From positions 35,529 through 99,528 of the forward strand of contig CAMFIF010000015.1 in the NCBI GenBank assembly GCA_945952415.1: 64,000 nucleotides of DNA, read 5' to 3'. Shown piece after piece: positions 18,182 through 30,302 of this stretch (its first letter is position 1; each line of letters starts with the position of its first letter). The notes under the pieces are model-generated. The model searched no databases. It worked only from the letters and a program-made list of their open reading frames with translations, and was not told the origin of the DNA. Position numbers and translations under genes: made by a program. The stretch is from an uncultured Rhizobium sp. GTDB lineage: Bacteria > Pseudomonadota > Alphaproteobacteria > Rhizobiales > Rhizobiaceae.

Positions 18182-18266
18182 GCCCCATTGGCGGAACTGG
18201 TAGACGCGCTCGACTCAAAATCGAGTTCCGAAAGGAGTGCTGGTTCGATCCCGGCATGGGGCACCA
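18182..18266 (+). tRNA. tRNA-Leu (anticodon CAA)
   Basis: The acceptor arms GCCCCAT and ATGGGGC pair perfectly. The anticodon stem is CTCGA/TCGAG around the loop CTCAAAA, giving anticodon CAA (decoding UUG). A long variable arm typical of tRNA-Leu and a TTCGATC T-loop follow, and the 3' CCA is encoded. Its 3' end is the insertion point of the island, and the tRNA remains intact. Confidence 0.95.
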
Positions 18267-18389: not shown

Positions 18390-18450
18390 GTTGGTATCTT
18401 AGTTGGTACTGAAGGAAATACCAACGCTCGGATACCAACAGGATACCAAC
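18390..18450. promoter_or_regulatory. GTTGGTA / TACCAAC iterons in front of the integrase
   Basis: Two direct GTTGGTA copies start at 18390 and 18402, 12 bp apart. Three inverted ATACCAAC copies start at 18418, 18432 and 18443, the last one touching the integrase ATG. A matching pair of GTTGGT copies, also 12 bp apart, is near attR. The best explanation is integrase or excisionase arm sites, which could also autoregulate int. Confidence 0.55.
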
Positions 18451-19671
18451 ATGCCGCTGAGTGATTTCTCGATTAGGACCATAAAGCCAGCCGAAAAGAT
18501 TCAGAAAAAGTCTGATGGCGATGGTCTCCAGTTGTGGGTGATGCCGCTGGGTTCAAAGCTCTGGCGTTATGCATATCGATATAACGGCAAACAAAGAACG
18601 CTAGCTTTGGGCTCATATCCAGAGATTACCTTGGCAAATGCCCGCAGAAAGCGCGACGAAGCCAAAACCCTGTTGGCTTCGGGGACCGATCCCGGCCAGC
18701 AGCGCAAAGTCGACAAGATCACCAAGGCATTGTCCGATGCGGCGACTTTCGACAGCGTTGCCGAAGAATACCTCGCGAAGAAGATGCGGGAAGGGATTGC
18801 GGCGAGCACGGTGAAGCGTCTGCGCTCCCAGTTGCGCCTTGTAAGCCCTGCCTTCGGGCAGCGCCCGATCGCGGATATCACGATACCCGAAGTTCTGGCA
18901 CCGCTGCAGAAGATCGATGGCCGGGGCACGCACGAAACCGCGACACGCACGAAGGAACTGTGCGGCGCGATTTTCCGGTTTGCCATGGCCACCGGACGAC
19001 GCAGGGACGACCCGACCCAGGCGCTGAAAAACGCGCTCACCAATCACAAGGTCAAGCACCGCGCCGCCATCCTCGATCCTGCGGCCTTCGGGGCGCTTCT
19101 CCGTGCCATTGACGACTGCGACGTGCAGCCGACAACGAAGGCCGCCCTGAAACTCCTGGCGCTCGTATTCTCTCGGCCTGGTGAGTTGCGAAATGCCGAA
19201 TGGCAGGAATTCGATCTGGAGAAAGCCATATGGCGAATTCCGGCAGGCCGTATGAAAATGCGGCGTGAACACCAGATCCCGCTTTCCCGCCAGGCGCTGG
19301 ATATCCTCAAGGATCTTCAGACGATCACGGGCGACGGCAAGCTTCTGTTTCCCGGCAATCGCAGCTACCAGCGTCCGATCAGCGAAAACACGCTCAACGC
19401 GGCGCTTCGCCGAATGGGATATGACAAGGACCAGGTGACTGCGCATGGCTTTCGCGGCACCGCTTCAACGCTCCTGAACGAGAGCGGTCGGTTCTCGCCC
19501 GACGCCATCGAACGCAGCCTTGCACATCAGGACAGTGACGAAACCCGCCGCGCCTATATTCGCGGGGCCTACTGGAACGAACGTGTGGCCATGGCGCAAT
19601 GGTGGGCCGATCATCTGGATGTCCTTAGAGAGGGAGGAAAGGTGATTGAAATGCCGAAGAAGCGAAAATGA
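18451..19671 (+). CDS. int: P4-type tyrosine recombinase (site-specific integrase)
   Basis: A 406-residue integrase with an N-terminal DUF4102 arm-binding domain (SDFSIRTIKPAEK, SDGDGLQLWV, LGSYPEITLANARRKRDEA). The central SAM-like domain covers about residues 95-180, and the catalytic domain follows. Catalytic elements visible are the first Arg in LVFSRPGELRNAEW, HGFRGTAST (His-x-x-Arg), and ETRRAYIRGAYW with the nucleophilic Tyr. Family members integrate islands into tRNA 3' ends, matching its position 180 bp from tRNA-Leu. The ATG follows an iteron directly; an earlier in-frame GTG is possible but would lie within the iterons. The gene appears intact. Confidence 0.93.
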   Translation: MPLSDFSIRTIKPAEKIQKKSDGDGLQLWVMPLGSKLWRYAYRYNGKQRTLALGSYPEITLANARRKRDEAKTLLASGTDPGQQRKVDKITKALSDAATFDSVAEEYLAKKMREGIAASTVKRLRSQLRLVSPAFGQRPIADITIPEVLAPLQKIDGRGTHETATRTKELCGAIFRFAMATGRRRDDPTQALKNALTNHKVKHRAAILDPAAFGALLRAIDDCDVQPTTKAALKLLALVFSRPGELRNAEWQEFDLEKAIWRIPAGRMKMRREHQIPLSRQALDILKDLQTITGDGKLLFPGNRSYQRPISENTLNAALRRMGYDKDQVTAHGFRGTASTLLNESGRFSPDAIERSLAHQDSDETRRAYIRGAYWNERVAMAQWWADHLDVLREGGKVIEMPKKRK

Positions 19672-22934: not shown

Positions 22935-24143
22935 TCACCTTTGGCGTTTCACAATCTTTTGCAAGTCGCGGTCATATCGGTAAAGATGAAGCTCACCATC
23001 CTTGATCAGCCGCGCAGCGTGAGCGACGTGCTCTGGCAGGACATAGAACCATTCTCGCGGACGAATTCTCTTGCCAAAGCGGTCAATGATGAAGAGTTCG
23101 CCCGGTTTTGCGGCGTCAAAGAACCGATGCAGCAAGTTCTCCACCTTCGAGCGGGACAGGTTCTGCAATTCGTAGGTTGCCACGATCTCGACGGGTGCCA
23201 GCAGAAATGTTGGGTCATTGCGGGCATCGGCCACACGACGCCGGACATCCTGGGACGTCACGCCAATCTTGTAGAGAATGTCGCGCTGGGGCTTGATCGC
23301 AGGGTCTTCCGAAAGGCTGCGTGCGACGTAGATCGTGCCGGACAGCGCAATTTTATCGCTTTCCCAATCCGGGTCCAGAGGGCCGAGGCCCAGCCGCTGG
23401 ACGACGCGGGCGGTCTTGTCATCGTTGAGCGACTTTCTGAAGGATGACATCAGCGGGTCGCTCTCGGTGCCATTCGAGAAGATCACGCGAAGGCGATGAT
23501 CGCGTGCGCCGCCGCGTTGCGTGCTTTCGCTCTTTTCCGCGATATAGGCCAGAAGACCGTTGCGGATAAAGAAGTCGCCTTCCTGCGGTTCGATGACGGC
23601 CCATTTCTCGATCAGGCTTGCTTCCCGTTCCCCCGTATCAAGAGCCTGCTGCATGGTTTCGAACAGGCCCGCAAACTCATCGAAATCCTTACAGGGCACG
23701 AAGTCGGCCCTGTGGTCGGGCGTCTGCCGTTCTGCGGCCGGTGTCACATGCTTGAGCCGAACGAGGTCAGGCAAAACATCCAGGCCGTCGTCGCCAAAGA
23801 TATCATCGAGCGAGTCCGGGATGTCCTCGTCTTCAACCTCATCCCGCCACGAAACCTCCGCGACCTCCCCTTTCCGTGCCAGGAGCCCAAGCCGGTCTGC
23901 CTGACGAAGCGCATCGGTTGGAGACTTGCGAAGTCCTTCCCAGATGGTGCCGAGCCGCATCTCTTCGTGTTGCGCAGAGTTGGGGTCCGGCAGACGTCCG
24001 TTCTGTTCATAGAAGCGCGTAACATCTTTCAGGATAGCCATGCCGTCGCTGCCGGTCGATGACGCCCTCGACTTCACCTTCACAGCAAGCAGGCCAAATT
24101 CGTCCGGCTCGGCGAATATCTCTTCCAGTGTCGGGCGGGGCAT
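22935..24143 (-). CDS. GIY-YIG nuclease family protein (T5orf172-like)
   Basis: A 402-residue protein. The C-terminal third carries a GIY-YIG-type nuclease core: SGTIYVAR at about 268-275, ILYKIGVTS at 289-297, Arg301-303, and a conserved Glu in SKVENLLHRFF near 335. The T5orf172 form of this domain is found in phage and defence nucleases. The N-terminal 260 residues are acidic and not recognised, and probably form a targeting or partner-binding part. Its ATG overlaps the helicase stop by 1 bp (TGATG), so the two are tightly coupled. It is the last gene of a four-gene minus-strand operon with an Mrr-like nuclease, methyltransferase and helicase. Confidence 0.8.
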   Translation of the reverse strand: MPRPTLEEIFAEPDEFGLLAVKVKSRASSTGSDGMAILKDVTRFYEQNGRLPDPNSAQHEEMRLGTIWEGLRKSPTDALRQADRLGLLARKGEVAEVSWRDEVEDEDIPDSLDDIFGDDGLDVLPDLVRLKHVTPAAERQTPDHRADFVPCKDFDEFAGLFETMQQALDTGEREASLIEKWAVIEPQEGDFFIRNGLLAYIAEKSESTQRGGARDHRLRVIFSNGTESDPLMSSFRKSLNDDKTARVVQRLGLGPLDPDWESDKIALSGTIYVARSLSEDPAIKPQRDILYKIGVTSQDVRRRVADARNDPTFLLAPVEIVATYELQNLSRSKVENLLHRFFDAAKPGELFIIDRFGKRIRPREWFYVLPEHVAHAARLIKDGELHLYRYDRDLQKIVKRQR

Positions 24144-26269
24144 CAGCTTGCAGTCTCCCGCATCATCTGCGCCTTGCGGTTCTTGAGCCAGGCCAGCGCT
24201 TCTGCCATGCGCTTTTCCAGCGCATCTTCGGCATGAACATTCGGCTCGCGCCCTTCCTGCGCCCGGAAGCGCTTGATCCGAGGCCAGAGCGTCCGCGCCT
24301 CTTCCTCTGTCATCTGCACACGCATGGCCACCATGGCTGACTGTACCTGCGACAGAAGCGGGGCGTCGAAGCTGCGCGAAGCCACCTCGAAGCACTCCTG
24401 AAACGCGTTGACGCTGTCGATCAGATCAATATCCAGCTCTCGGACATTGATGAAGCGGCGCACCATGGCCAGCAGCGTGTTGGGTGCTGCCCGCATATCA
24501 TCATCCGCTTCGACTGCTTCTGTCTGCCACATGCCGCCGCCTGCGCCAATCGTCTCGCCCTCTGCCTGATCAGCCCCGATAAACGGCGCGCCGGCATCCT
24601 GAAATCCACGTTGGGCATCATGCCGCGCGAGCGTCAGCAGATTCATCCGGGCGGCAAGGTTCTGGCGGATGGATTCGGTTTCGTCATCGCTGAGGTTTTC
24701 ATAGCGATGCTCGATAATGTCGGGCAGCAGCATCTGCGTTGCCACTTCCGGTGCCGTGTCCGGGGAAACGATGCGGGCATCGACAGCCTGGCAGGCCGTT
24801 GCCATCAGGTCCGCCATATCGTTTTCGCAGATATCCCGCGCCCGGTCGGTCGGTGGCTCCATCAGGCCCTTGATGCCGATAGTGATGGTGCCCCTGCCAT
24901 CATCGCTGATCGGTTCGCGGATGTCGCCATCTTCCCGGCGATAGAATTTGAAATTGGGTGCCAGTACCTGCTCCATCAGCAGAGAGCCGGAAATGGCCTT
25001 CAGCATGTCGTTGACGGCATCCTTCACCGCCGCCGTTTCCACGCCCGGTTCGGCGACCAGATTGGTGAAGATGGCTTTCGTCTTGCCCGGTGCATCCCGC
25101 GTTGCGCGGCCGATGATCTGCACGATTTCGGTCAGCGATGCACGATAGCCGATGGTCAGCGCGTGTTCGCACCATACCCAGTCGAAGCCCTCCTTGGCCA
25201 TGCCGAGAGCGATGATGATGTCCACCTTGGCGCGATCGGCCGCATCGTCGCGCTTGCCATCCGGCCCCTTGATCTCTCGGGAAAGCGCGGCCTTCACGCC
25301 CTCGCGTTCCGCGCCATCATGAACGAGATCGGCCACTTTCAGTACGCGGCCATCTGCCGTGCGGATCAGATCGAAGCCGGTCTCCTCTTCAACGCCAATG
25401 TGCTCGCCGATAAGGTCGAGAATCCGGCCCACCTCATCGTTCTTCTCGCCGAAGGCTTCTGCCGAGCCGCGATGGGGAATGTGGATTATGGTCTTCAGCG
25501 TGGTGTCCAGCACATCGGGCAGGCCATTGATATATTGCCCGCGATAGAAGCTGTAGTTGACGCCGAGCGCCTTCAGATACTCGTAGCCTTCGAGCTGTTC
25601 GTAATAGGAATAGGTGATGGTGGTGAAGCGCGCCTCGTCTTCCGGCCGCAGCACGGGCACGGCATCGCCTCGGAAATAGGAGCCGGTCATCGCCATGACA
25701 TGGGTTTGCCCGCGCCCGACGATCTGGCGCAGAATTTCGCCGAGCCGGTTGTTATCGGCCGCCGAGACATGGTGAAACTCATCGATGGCGAGGAACAGAT
25801 TGTCGAAGGCCTCGATACCCTGCGCCCGCTCCACCGCCTCGAAACCGAAGCGGAAGGTGGCATGGGTGCAGACCAGCACGCGGGCGCCGGACTGCATGAA
25901 GTCGGAAAAGGCCTTCACCTTCTGCGCCGTCGAGCCATCCTCCGTGCCGGAAAGGCAGAGGTTCCAGCGGTCCTCAACCTGCCAGTCGGCATCGAAGCCA
26001 TAGCTTTTCAGGTCTGTCGAGCGGAAGGAGCCGCCAATCGAGGTTTCCGGCACGCAGACAATGGTTTTCGCCAGTCCCTGATGGTTCAGCTTGTCCAGCG
26101 CCACGAACATCAACGCGCGGCTCTTGCCTGCGGCCGGCGGAGCCTTCAGCAGAATGAACTGCGCGCTGCGGGCGGCATAGGCGCGGGCCTGCATGGGCCG
26201 CTGGCCAAGCGCATTGGTGGCCTTGGATTGCCCGGTGCCGGCATAGCGAACATTGACCATCTCGACCAT
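24143..26269 (-). CDS. DEAD/DEAH-box (SF2) helicase of a restriction-like system
   Basis: A 708-residue SF2 ATPase. Walker A is KAPPAAGKS at about 42-50, motif II is AIDEFHH at about 161-167, a motif III-like MAMTGSYFRGD follows, and motif VI is QIIGRATRDAPGK near 385. This resembles the helicase of type I/III-like restriction complexes, without an attached nuclease domain. The start abuts the methyltransferase stop with no gap, and its own stop overlaps the GIY-YIG gene. It probably translocates along or opens DNA for the neighbouring nucleases; that role is inferred from context. Confidence 0.85.
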   Translation of the reverse strand: MVEMVNVRYAGTGQSKATNALGQRPMQARAYAARSAQFILLKAPPAAGKSRALMFVALDKLNHQGLAKTIVCVPETSIGGSFRSTDLKSYGFDADWQVEDRWNLCLSGTEDGSTAQKVKAFSDFMQSGARVLVCTHATFRFGFEAVERAQGIEAFDNLFLAIDEFHHVSAADNNRLGEILRQIVGRGQTHVMAMTGSYFRGDAVPVLRPEDEARFTTITYSYYEQLEGYEYLKALGVNYSFYRGQYINGLPDVLDTTLKTIIHIPHRGSAEAFGEKNDEVGRILDLIGEHIGVEEETGFDLIRTADGRVLKVADLVHDGAEREGVKAALSREIKGPDGKRDDAADRAKVDIIIALGMAKEGFDWVWCEHALTIGYRASLTEIVQIIGRATRDAPGKTKAIFTNLVAEPGVETAAVKDAVNDMLKAISGSLLMEQVLAPNFKFYRREDGDIREPISDDGRGTITIGIKGLMEPPTDRARDICENDMADLMATACQAVDARIVSPDTAPEVATQMLLPDIIEHRYENLSDDETESIRQNLAARMNLLTLARHDAQRGFQDAGAPFIGADQAEGETIGAGGGMWQTEAVEADDDMRAAPNTLLAMVRRFINVRELDIDLIDSVNAFQECFEVASRSFDAPLLSQVQSAMVAMRVQMTEEEARTLWPRIKRFRAQEGREPNVHAEDALEKRMAEALAWLKNRKAQMMRETAS

Positions 26270-28954
26270 TTACTTCGCCCCCTGCTTTACCCGCGCCGCA
26301 TAGAGCTTGAACAGCTTTTCCAGTCGCTCGGTGTCATTGCGGAAGGGGCGGCCGATATACATGCTCTCCAGCAGCTCATCATTCTCCCGGTGCACCGCCC
26401 GCAGATCTTCCGGCATCTTGTCCGGGTCGTAGAGGTCGGCGATGGTTTTGGGGTAATGCTGATAGCGTGTTTTCAGAATGCGCCGCGCCGATGCCGAAAG
26501 CTGCTCCAGCTGCTCGGCGGTGAATTTCGGCACCGGAAAGGTGTTCCAGCCCAGCGTGTTGGAATAGCGGAAATCGGATTTCAGCTTGCCGCAAACGGTC
26601 GCGATCCAGACGAGGTGCAGACGCGAGGCGATCAGGGCGATGCACCAGTCAGGGGCGTCTGGTATCAGAAATGCTAGATTTGATACGACAGCGCCACTTT
26701 CGAGCTTACCTACAGGAAACCATTCTCGCCGCTCCGAGCTTACCGAAGGGACAATTAGTGGTTCTCCTGCCCTTGGGCCAACATGTTGGAAGCGATGAGG
26801 CACAAGAGACAAAACGTCTCTTGTTTCCCGCTTCTTGCTGACTTTTCGCAAATCCTTGACAGCTAAAAGCCGCCTCGAAATTTCTGGTATTGCTTCTGCC
26901 TCTTCTCTTTGGTCGTCATCTATGGCGATGCACCATCTTCGCAGATCTTTTATGAAGTCCTCCGAACCGGAAAATCGCCTGACGAATTTTCTTGCTGCCG
27001 GCCAGTGATCTAGCAGCTCATTAACTTCCGATTCATCAAGTATAAGATTGCCACCGTCATTAGGCACGCTGCCCGTTACCATGCGCGGAAGCGTGAAAAA
27101 AAGCGGCCGAGGCTGGCTTTTTATTTCAATATCTGCGGCGTCTATAAGAAATCGATTTATATTTGTGCACTCGTGAACGATGCCATCTGTGAATAGTCGC
27201 TTTAGGTTTGTTCTCCATGTGTCCTGTATGCCTACAATGACGCAATTAACGGCTGCATTTTTGGACGCATTGTTAGCCCACTTGAAGGTCGTATAAGCGA
27301 AAAATATCGATTTTTCAGCATTAAGCACGTGTGGCCAGAGCTGGTCTACTTGTCGTCCCTGGCACAAAGAATTTGTTGAAACTAGGGCGAAGCGTGATCG
27401 TCGCCCCGATATATAGTCCGACGCCAGCAAGAACCAGCATCCAACATAATCTATATATCCTATCTGTCTTATTCTCTTTCCTAGAACGAACGCCATATCT
27501 TCTTGGTGCGCCGCGTCCTTCTTGCCCTTCCCCAAAAACGGCGGATTTCCCGCGATGTAAACCTCTTCATCCGCGCCAGGTGGCGGGCAAACCTCATCCC
27601 AGTTCACCCGCAGAGCATTGTCGCATCGGATCTGACCACCATCCCTCAACGGCAACAGCGGAGGCATCCGCCCGAACACATCGGCAAAGCGGGCGTTTGC
27701 CTGATATTCGGCAATGAACAGCGCCAGCTTTGCCGTTTCCGCCGCAAAGTCCGTCAACTCAATGCCGTAGAACTGGTTGAGGCTCACCGAGGAAAACATG
27801 ACATTCTGCGGATTGTCCTCCAGCTCTCCCAACCGTTTCAGAATGCGAATCTCGCGCTCGCGCATCTGCCGGTAGGCGACGACAAGAAAATTGCCGGAGC
27901 CGCAGGCGGGATCGAAGATGCGGATTTTCGACAGGCGGTGAAGCTGGGCCTTCAGGGCCGCCGGCTTGTCCCAGGCCTTGTCCAGTGCCTCATCCAGATC
28001 ATCCAGAAACAACGGCCCCAGCACCTTCATGATATTGGGTACCGAAGTGTAATGCATGCCGAGTTCGGCGCGGGCCTTGGGATCGGCGATCGACTGGATC
28101 ATCGAGCCGAAAATATCCGGGTTGATCAGCTTCCAGTCCAGATCGGCGGCATCGCGCAGATAGCGGAAGGAGATCGGATCGAAGGCCGGTGCCTCTATGG
28201 CATCGGCAAACAGTCCGCCATTCACGTATTCGAATTTGTCCGTCCAGGCCGGCAGGCCCTGACGCTGCCCCCTGGGAAGGTTCATGGCGGAAAATGCCTG
28301 AACAAGCACATCGCGGGCATGTTCGCCCCTGTTGCCGCCATAGGAAAAGACGGCATAGGAAAACTGGTTTTCCCCGAAGACGCCCACATCTTCAGAGAAC
28401 AGGCAGAAGATGAGCCGCGTCATGAACAGGTTCATGGCATGCCGGCGCTCCGGCACGGCCCAATCCGGGTTCGCCTTCAGAAGGGCATCATAGAGTTTTG
28501 CGAGCTTGCCGGTGGCCTTGATGTCAACCGGGTTTTCCTCTGCCGCGCGGTAGCGCTCCTTGCCGGCCGCAGGCAGGAAAAAGGCGAAGTGCGTGCCAAG
28601 TTCGGCAAACGGGCAATGCAGCGTTTCCCCCGATTTCGGATGCTCGGCCGCGATCATCTCGCCATCCGTGGCGAGAAGGATTGCGGGTTTCGCCTTGGCC
28701 GTGCGCCTGGAGGCGCGGAGCACGTCCAGCATACCGGCCGCCTCGCCAGGGAGGGCAGGGGCGTAATGGAACTTGCCGTTCAGCAGCACGCCGCCCGCAA
28801 TGTCCGACTTGTTGGTGGTCCCCGCCCTCAGCTTGGCAACGGTTGCCTGGGCATTATCCGTGGCCTGCGCAAAGGCATAGCCGAACTCGGCGGGATCGAA
28901 TTTTGCCTTGGCAATGGCATCAAGGGCGTCTGCAATGTCTGTCGGGTTCATCAT
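26270..28954 (-). CDS. Class I N6-adenine DNA methyltransferase (YeeA/MmeI-like)
   Basis: An 894-residue DNA methyltransferase. The SAM motif IFDPACGSGNFL is at 346-357 and the catalytic motif IAGNPPF at 467-473. Before them, residues 280-305 (DIFGSMIQSIADPKARAELG) match the family lead-in. Motif order I then IV with a C-terminal specificity region is gamma-type. The stretch coding for residues about 490-755 (26690-27480) is strikingly richer in A+T than its flanks, suggesting a swapped target-recognition domain. No nuclease motif is visible in this protein, so cutting would fall to its neighbours. Two ATG codons are adjacent at the start. Confidence 0.88.
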   Translation of the reverse strand: MMNPTDIADALDAIAKAKFDPAEFGYAFAQATDNAQATVAKLRAGTTNKSDIAGGVLLNGKFHYAPALPGEAAGMLDVLRASRRTAKAKPAILLATDGEMIAAEHPKSGETLHCPFAELGTHFAFFLPAAGKERYRAAEENPVDIKATGKLAKLYDALLKANPDWAVPERRHAMNLFMTRLIFCLFSEDVGVFGENQFSYAVFSYGGNRGEHARDVLVQAFSAMNLPRGQRQGLPAWTDKFEYVNGGLFADAIEAPAFDPISFRYLRDAADLDWKLINPDIFGSMIQSIADPKARAELGMHYTSVPNIMKVLGPLFLDDLDEALDKAWDKPAALKAQLHRLSKIRIFDPACGSGNFLVVAYRQMREREIRILKRLGELEDNPQNVMFSSVSLNQFYGIELTDFAAETAKLALFIAEYQANARFADVFGRMPPLLPLRDGGQIRCDNALRVNWDEVCPPPGADEEVYIAGNPPFLGKGKKDAAHQEDMAFVLGKRIRQIGYIDYVGCWFLLASDYISGRRSRFALVSTNSLCQGRQVDQLWPHVLNAEKSIFFAYTTFKWANNASKNAAVNCVIVGIQDTWRTNLKRLFTDGIVHECTNINRFLIDAADIEIKSQPRPLFFTLPRMVTGSVPNDGGNLILDESEVNELLDHWPAARKFVRRFSGSEDFIKDLRRWCIAIDDDQREEAEAIPEISRRLLAVKDLRKVSKKRETRDVLSLVPHRFQHVGPRAGEPLIVPSVSSERREWFPVGKLESGAVVSNLAFLIPDAPDWCIALIASRLHLVWIATVCGKLKSDFRYSNTLGWNTFPVPKFTAEQLEQLSASARRILKTRYQHYPKTIADLYDPDKMPEDLRAVHRENDELLESMYIGRPFRNDTERLEKLFKLYAARVKQGAK

Positions 28955-28990
28955 GGAAATATGTGTTTCTTTTATTGGGATGGTTGCCGG

Positions 28991-29992
28991 TCATGACCAG
29001 GCAGGAATGAAAATACGCTTCAATGGCACGAGCTGCTGGGTCTCGAGGTCGAGCTTATCGTACTGCTCGAGCAGGCTTTTTACCAGATCGTCAAGATCCA
29101 TGAGCGCAGTCGGGATGCGGGCGCGTTCGGCCTCATAGCGCGCCTCGCGGGTAAAGCCGCCGGTGCTGACGTAGAGGCCCTTGTCGAGGTCATGCCGTCC
29201 GGCAATGAAATTGCGCAGGTCCGGCGCGCCCATGGAACCTTTGCGATGCTTGACCTCCACAACGATGCGGGGCGCCTCGAACCCAAAGCCATCGGGCGAC
29301 GCGACAATATCCTTGCCGCGATCAGGCCCGGCCTCTGAAATCCTTGTCTTGTAGCCAAGGGAGCGAAGCAGGCCGGCAACCAGCTCCTGCATCTCCTCCC
29401 AACCAAGCGCGCTCACCTTGTCCTTTATGAATTCCCGCGCGCGGTTCGCCATGTTCTCGAAGATGTCGTCTTCCGCCGCCTCGCTGATGGCAAGGGGCGC
29501 TTCCGGCGGCGCCGCGCCGCGTTTGGCGAGAGCCTGCCTGAGTTCGGCCGCAACCTCATTCGACAGCCTGAAAAGGGTAGAGATTGATCCAAGGCTGTTG
29601 CGGCTCTCCACGGATAGCAGATCACGGCTGACTTCCCCTTCCCATGTCACGGAGCGGACCTGTGTATCTTCGGGGTCGATGGAGGGGTCGTGTCTGTAGG
29701 GACCGGCAATCTGACCGACGAGATAGATCCGGCTTGAAGGATCATAGGTGACGATCATGTCGCCGACGGTCATCTCGTTCACGAAGCGGTGGAGCTGACC
29801 GGCAGCCATGGCCTGGCTTTGTGGCTTTGAACCGGGATAAGTTACGGCAAACGCATTGCTTATCGCCTTGCGCGTTTTCGCGGCCGAGAGATCGCCCAGC
29901 GCCGGCCATCCGATGGCAACGACCGACTTTTCCTTGAACGCTTCAAAGAGACGCCCATTTCGCTCCGCGCGCACCATCCAGGCTTTGCTCAT
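28991..29992 (-). CDS. Mrr-like restriction endonuclease
   Basis: A 333-residue protein with a C-terminal Mrr_cat (PD-(D/E)xK) domain. GWEEMQELVAGLLRSLGY leads into GPDRGKDIV (Asp228) and VVEVKHRKG (Glu246-x-Lys248). This fold cuts methylated or otherwise marked DNA in Mrr. The N-terminal 110 residues (MSKAWMVRAERNGRLF, VAIGW, VGDMIVTYDP, YLVGQIAGPY) resemble the small modified-base or nucleic-acid reader domain often fused to Mrr. GGGGGAG precedes the ATG at 29992. It is the first gene of the operon, 36 bp before the methyltransferase. Confidence 0.88.
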   Translation of the reverse strand: MSKAWMVRAERNGRLFEAFKEKSVVAIGWPALGDLSAAKTRKAISNAFAVTYPGSKPQSQAMAAGQLHRFVNEMTVGDMIVTYDPSSRIYLVGQIAGPYRHDPSIDPEDTQVRSVTWEGEVSRDLLSVESRNSLGSISTLFRLSNEVAAELRQALAKRGAAPPEAPLAISEAAEDDIFENMANRAREFIKDKVSALGWEEMQELVAGLLRSLGYKTRISEAGPDRGKDIVASPDGFGFEAPRIVVEVKHRKGSMGAPDLRNFIAGRHDLDKGLYVSTGGFTREARYEAERARIPTALMDLDDLVKSLLEQYDKLDLETQQLVPLKRIFIPAWS

Positions 29993-30302
29993 GTCACTCC
30001 CCCTATCCCGCGGACAATTCCGCACTCGCAGCCGGAATGCAATAGGATCAGGCAACAATCCAAGGTCGTTGGAAAGGTGTCTTGGACAACTAGCCATGAT
30101 GACGGTAACCCGCAGCGGATCGAGACCCAGAGGGTTCGCGCGCGCACGCGATGCTGTGTGCAGAAAATCGCCCTCGGGCACCATGAAGGGTCACGATATA
30201 TCCACCCTCAGAGGATTGCCCGGCCAGAGGAAAGATTTGCCATGCGCAACCCTGGCGTGATTGGAGGATGACAAATCCTTCAGCTGGCAATAGCCTGGCG
30301 GC
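29993..30302. other. Divergent intergenic region between the mrr operon and the DUF3883 gene
   Basis: 310 bp with no supported gene. It must hold the promoters of both divergent units. No clear operator palindrome or hairpin-T-run was recognised. Confidence 0.55.

Follow-up and report, generated by a model that had tools for sequence, protein, structure and literature searches.

Probable en bloc exchange of a specificity cassette in a DnmA-type DNA methyltransferase gene of an uncultured Rhizobium

The dnmA-yeeB-yeeC genes of B. subtilis encode, in this order, a methyltransferase that marks GACGAG (PMC7261158, PMC9973331), a helicase and a T5orf172/GIY-YIG protein (PMC9973331). No restriction was seen with the partner genes of DnmA in B. 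subtilis (PMC9973331), and deletion of homologues in Vibrio crassostreae is cited, in PMC9973331, as raising the sensitivity to some phages. The Type IIL enzyme MmeI (PMC4833311, PDB 5hr4) carries a PD-(D/E)XK nuclease in the same chain as the methyltransferase. The window analysed here, a stretch of 64,000 nucleotides from contig CAMFIF010000015.1 of an uncultured Rhizobium sp., resembles the DnmA-YeeB-YeeC system in that an MmeI-like methyltransferase without a recognised nuclease motif is followed by genes for a helicase and a T5orf172/GIY-YIG protein. The genes and the parts of the methyltransferase gene, in window positions, are as follows:

22935-24146, minus strand: GIY-YIG/T5orf172 protein, conserved YeeC-like partner (Pfam MUG113 and T5orf172)
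24143-26269, minus strand: DEAD-box helicase, YeeB-like partner (Pfam), kept beside the methyltransferase in most loci
26270-28954, minus strand: predicted DnmA-type (MmeI-fold) N6-adenine DNA methyltransferase, 894 aa (Pfam and PDB 5hr4)
26270-26659, minus strand: conserved C-terminal backbone of the methyltransferase, residues 766-894, with K792/D794 and R796 (residue mapping)
26660-27530 (approximate), minus strand: putatively exchanged specificity cassette, residues ~476-765 (GC3 change-point, identity drop, DNA homology break and tree conflict)
27531-28954, minus strand: conserved N-terminal backbone (residues 1-474), whose end lies directly behind NPPF
28991-29992, minus strand: Mrr_cat nuclease gene, an optional neighbour (Pfam, PADLOC PDC-S02; start inferred)

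All five MmeI domains (MmeI_N, hel, Mtase, TRD and C) were matched by Pfam in the methyltransferase. MmeI (5hr4) is its sole solved relative by sequence, and the predicted model of the window protein (mean pLDDT 85) reaches a TM-score of 0.86, by target length, against this structure. The methyltransferase motifs are retained (H301, N470-P-P-F and W559, with NPPF at residues 470-473), and by Pfam, sequence and fold the gene encodes an MmeI-like m6A methyltransferase whose activity is predicted. The likeness to MmeI extends to the fold, the contact positions and the domain order from the helical spacer on. In contrast, the defining Type IIL feature, an N-terminal PD-(D/E)XK nuclease in the same polypeptide, has no counterpart by sequence in the window protein: the alignment with MmeI begins only at residue 129 and the window clade has H105-P-K107, which leaves a fused nuclease unsupported. 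At residues 97-107 (window 28630-28670), most homologues carry D97...D105-x-K107, which resembles a short-spaced PD-(D/E)XK motif; this family consensus possibly marks a degenerate nuclease domain.

As compared by Pfam and gene order, the superfamily II helicase gene and then the T5orf172/GIY-YIG gene lie directly downstream of the methyltransferase gene in the window, and both partners are found downstream in most homologous loci, from several phyla. The start of the YeeC-like gene was inferred at an ATG that overlaps the helicase stop. DNA homology with the relatives is limited to the operon and its Mrr neighbour (22951-30004). The Mrr_cat gene, a type of neighbour absent from the B. subtilis locus, accompanies the operon in L032, L034 and L035 and is missing beside L033. 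About 3 kb from the operon, a tyrosine integrase gene (18403-19671) adjoins a tRNA-Leu gene (18182-18266), suggesting an island, with its probable end at this place. A NOV_C-domain gene (PF13020, 30303-31136) beside the operon, on the opposite strand, is possibly a further defence gene.

The sequence-only reading had described an A+T-rich patch with GC-rich flanks in the methyltransferase gene at 26690-27480, and GC3 along the gene confirmed it. A change-point fit with two breakpoints over the 894 codons placed the patch at residues 484 (481-491) to 765 (761-771), with a GC3 of 0.43 inside versus 0.75 outside. The patch is real and far beyond chance, the log-likelihood gain being 43 versus 9.6 for the best of the 60 shuffles that served as control. 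At fourfold-degenerate sites, the GC content is 0.83 before the patch, 0.41 within it and 0.89 after it. The location had thus been given correctly, but the extent slightly short: DNA homology to the relatives breaks at 26659, at the same position against L032, L035, L116 and L106 (at 26611-26626 against L034 and L033), and restarts at 27518-27543.

An alignment of homologues, proposed as the check on a replaced segment, gave the expected pattern. Against the five closest relatives (L032, L116, L033, L034 and L035), identity is 91-94% before the patch, 36-40% inside and 89-98% after it, and no close homologue equally conserved through the patch was found. These five relatives also diverge from each other within the block. 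The gene thereby has the makeup of a mosaic allele, with conserved flanks, a divergent central block and sharp borders, the left of which sits directly behind NPPF-L-G. The block comprises the rear half of the MTase domain and about three quarters of the TRD. The earlier expectation of a specificity domain directly after NPPF, replaced as a swapped TRD, therefore needs amending: the segment does follow NPPF, but it starts inside the catalytic domain rather than at the TRD border, and the last part of the TRD was not exchanged in the window clade. Among 107 homologues, pairs whose N-terminal backbones are 80-100% identical average 46-47% identity in the cassette; the pair L106/L119 has 73% cassette identity and 61% N-terminal backbone identity.

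Block and backbone also conflict in phylogeny, as in a mosaic allele. In the backbone tree, the window and the five relatives form one clade with a support of 100, and the window branch measures 0.039. In the cassette tree the window branch measures 1.2, ~30 times its length in the backbone tree, and the backbone clade is rejected (94 lnL, p_AU 1.2e-5). In this tree, whose inner branches have weak support and whose rows are long, cassettes from different backbone clades come together, namely L116 with L106/L119 and L035 with L118. Together, the drop in identity and the conflict between patch and backbone trees lend good support to the recombinational replacement of the specificity segment that had been postulated.

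We consider it highly probable that the patch is a specificity cassette exchanged en bloc by recombination in the conserved flanks of the DnmA-type gene; at the level of sequence, the block, the places where it begins and ends, and the disagreement of the trees are established. The left crossover would lie directly behind the NPPF catalytic motif and the right one in the latter half of the TRD; the incoming DNA, from a source outside the genome, was presumably recombined in by the ordinary homologous route. A local donor is lacking, because the genome has a single MmeI_TRD copy, and a search through 385 genomes from the class, together with plasmids, phages and viral contigs, gave nothing above ~42% identity to the cassette. 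No repeats were found at the cassette borders, which, with no second MmeI_TRD copy, speaks against repeat-driven shuffling of the kind seen in domain movement or inverting hsdS. The lack of a donor would also suit divergence of the patch in place, through fast point mutation under diversifying selection and without recombination, and such selection is plausible for a segment that forms the DNA-facing part. This account is nevertheless very improbable in view of the sharp homology edges, the composition step at the patch, the sister cassettes that cross backbone clades, the rejection of the backbone clade and the disproportionate length of the cassette branch. The sharp change of composition inside one gene might also point to an assembly chimera or a sequencing artefact, an explanation that is scarcely credible for a frame open over 894 codons with intact catalytic residues, the same architecture recurring in independent relatives.

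An en bloc exchange of this kind would probably have altered the methylated site. Positions 1-2 of the MmeI site are read by TRD-N and the others by TRD-C, and K487, S488 and K489, just past NPPF, contact the minor groove (PMC4833311). We placed the contact residues, taken for MmeI from PMC4833311, through the window-MmeI (5hr4) sequence alignment. The cassette holds the residues equivalent to the MmeI contacts for positions 1-3, the minor-groove loop and the 774-equivalent (position 4). The equivalents of MmeI 805, 806, 808 and 810 lie in the C-terminal part that is kept; the spared end of the TRD carries the position-6 determinants K792/D794 and the position-4 arginine R796. By MmeI rules, the combination of a bulky residue and Arg (L760/R796) corresponds to G at position 4 and the K-D pair (K792/D794) to G at position 6, which predicts NNNGAG as the type of site, methylated at its A; like the GACGAG of B. 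subtilis DnmA, it ends in GAG. Among relatives that share the K-D pair, the position-2 residues vary (F/M, Y/K or Y/Y versus T/V in the window), and position 3 has R/D, T/N or, as in the window, S/N. The exchange would have brought in the residues for site positions 1-3, one of the two for position 4 and the minor-groove loop that follows NPPF, leaving the catalytic front half, the position-6 residues and the C-terminal part unchanged. A new specificity, as the sequence-only reading proposed, is predicted from these assignments, and the DNA sequences that are marked and guarded probably differ among close relatives. The helicase and the GIY-YIG protein may rely on the methyltransferase for recognition in a Type I-like manner; with recognition shared, marking and attack would change together, and a swap need not be lethal.

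We surveyed the composition of the same segment across the family, comparing GC4 of the cassette (residues ~476-800) with that of the backbone in 107 homologues (L002-L141), which are phylogenetically non-independent, so that the counts are descriptive. In 104 of the 107, the cassette has the lower GC4. The difference is nearly the same at conserved sites (0.36 vs 0.59) and at variable sites (0.35 vs 0.57), and poor site conservation is therefore rejected as its origin. The A+T shift is also seen in 19 of 20 genes with a backbone GC4 below 0.35; donors drawn from an average pool should make the cassettes of A+T-rich hosts richer in GC, and no such rise was seen. In the mean family profile, the shift is 0.00 at residues 464-471, reaches -0.25 at 480-487 and recovers between about 792 and 815. 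The left edge is thus sharp, at NPPF, and the right edge lies further on than in the window clade, suggesting that right crossovers vary across the family. The helicase displays no internal composition step, which rejects a general mid-gene GC dip. Relative to the other genes of their loci, cassettes are lower in GC in 53 of 58 cases; in a small sample of Type I loci (L150-L179), HsdS has a lower GC than its neighbours in 22 of 28 (Wilcoxon p 4e-5).

Since 104 of 107 homologues share the shift over the same segment, A+T-richness by itself is not proof of a recent foreign donor. A recent arrival from an A+T-rich organism, whose signature of low GC had yet to ameliorate, would agree with the GC3 values of the patch and its flanks, and the same argument has been applied to Neisseria modA, whose recognition domain was reported to be low in GC and interpreted as foreign (PMC3311624). 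We find this account unlikely here, given how widespread the shift is, even in genes with A+T-rich backbones; a generic composition says nothing on recency or donor, a point that leaves import itself unaffected. Being near-universal, present at conserved sites and beginning with the segment, the shift might instead serve function or translation (slower codons that aid folding would be one case) and owe nothing to recombination, even with the cassette exchanged. That option appears rather doubtful, because HsdS, which has a different fold, shows a similar tendency relative to its neighbours, which fits exchange and not the needs of one fold; the helicase, moreover, lacks an internal shift. A further possibility, though less probable than not, is that specificity cassettes are a separate compositional compartment, synonymously more A+T-rich than their own gene and neighbourhood in nearly every lineage, with the edge at the crossover. 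If such a compartment is general, and the small HsdS sample agrees, it would bear on recombination itself: for instance, biased gene conversion may enrich homologous flanks in GC but bypass cassettes that cannot be aligned, or cassettes may pass time in an A+T-biased mobile pool. The family-wide composition step, which is the least explained of our results, cautions against taking a low GC content of a recognition domain as proof of recent foreign origin.

The exchange of recognition domains has precedents in Type I and Type III systems, and the window methyltransferase is a clear further example. Block exchange is unusually clear here and runs through the whole methyltransferase family, giving a base-resolution view of a route by which a DnmA-type operon can acquire another target, via one block, with the catalytic front half and the partner genes kept; we predict that strains more than 90% alike in the operon mark different sites. 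Cassette exchange is absent from the descriptions of the B. subtilis system (PMC7261158, PMC9973331), and our literature search found no report of it in the DnmA/MmeI-type family, although an earlier description is possible. Type III Mod/modA (PMC3311624) offers a close parallel in that a central recognition block between conserved methyltransferase motifs, low in GC, is replaced en bloc and moved between lineages; TRD exchange in Helicobacter Type III systems is cited in PMC3983042. The Type III systems differ from that of the window in using another methyltransferase and other partner proteins. In Type I HsdS (PMC3874165, PMC3077401), specificity is likewise altered by recognition-domain exchange through conserved flanks. 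However, HsdS forms a subunit by itself, with two TRDs and flanking repeats for domain movement, whereas the window enzyme has one TRD fused to the catalytic domain, half of which moves along with it.
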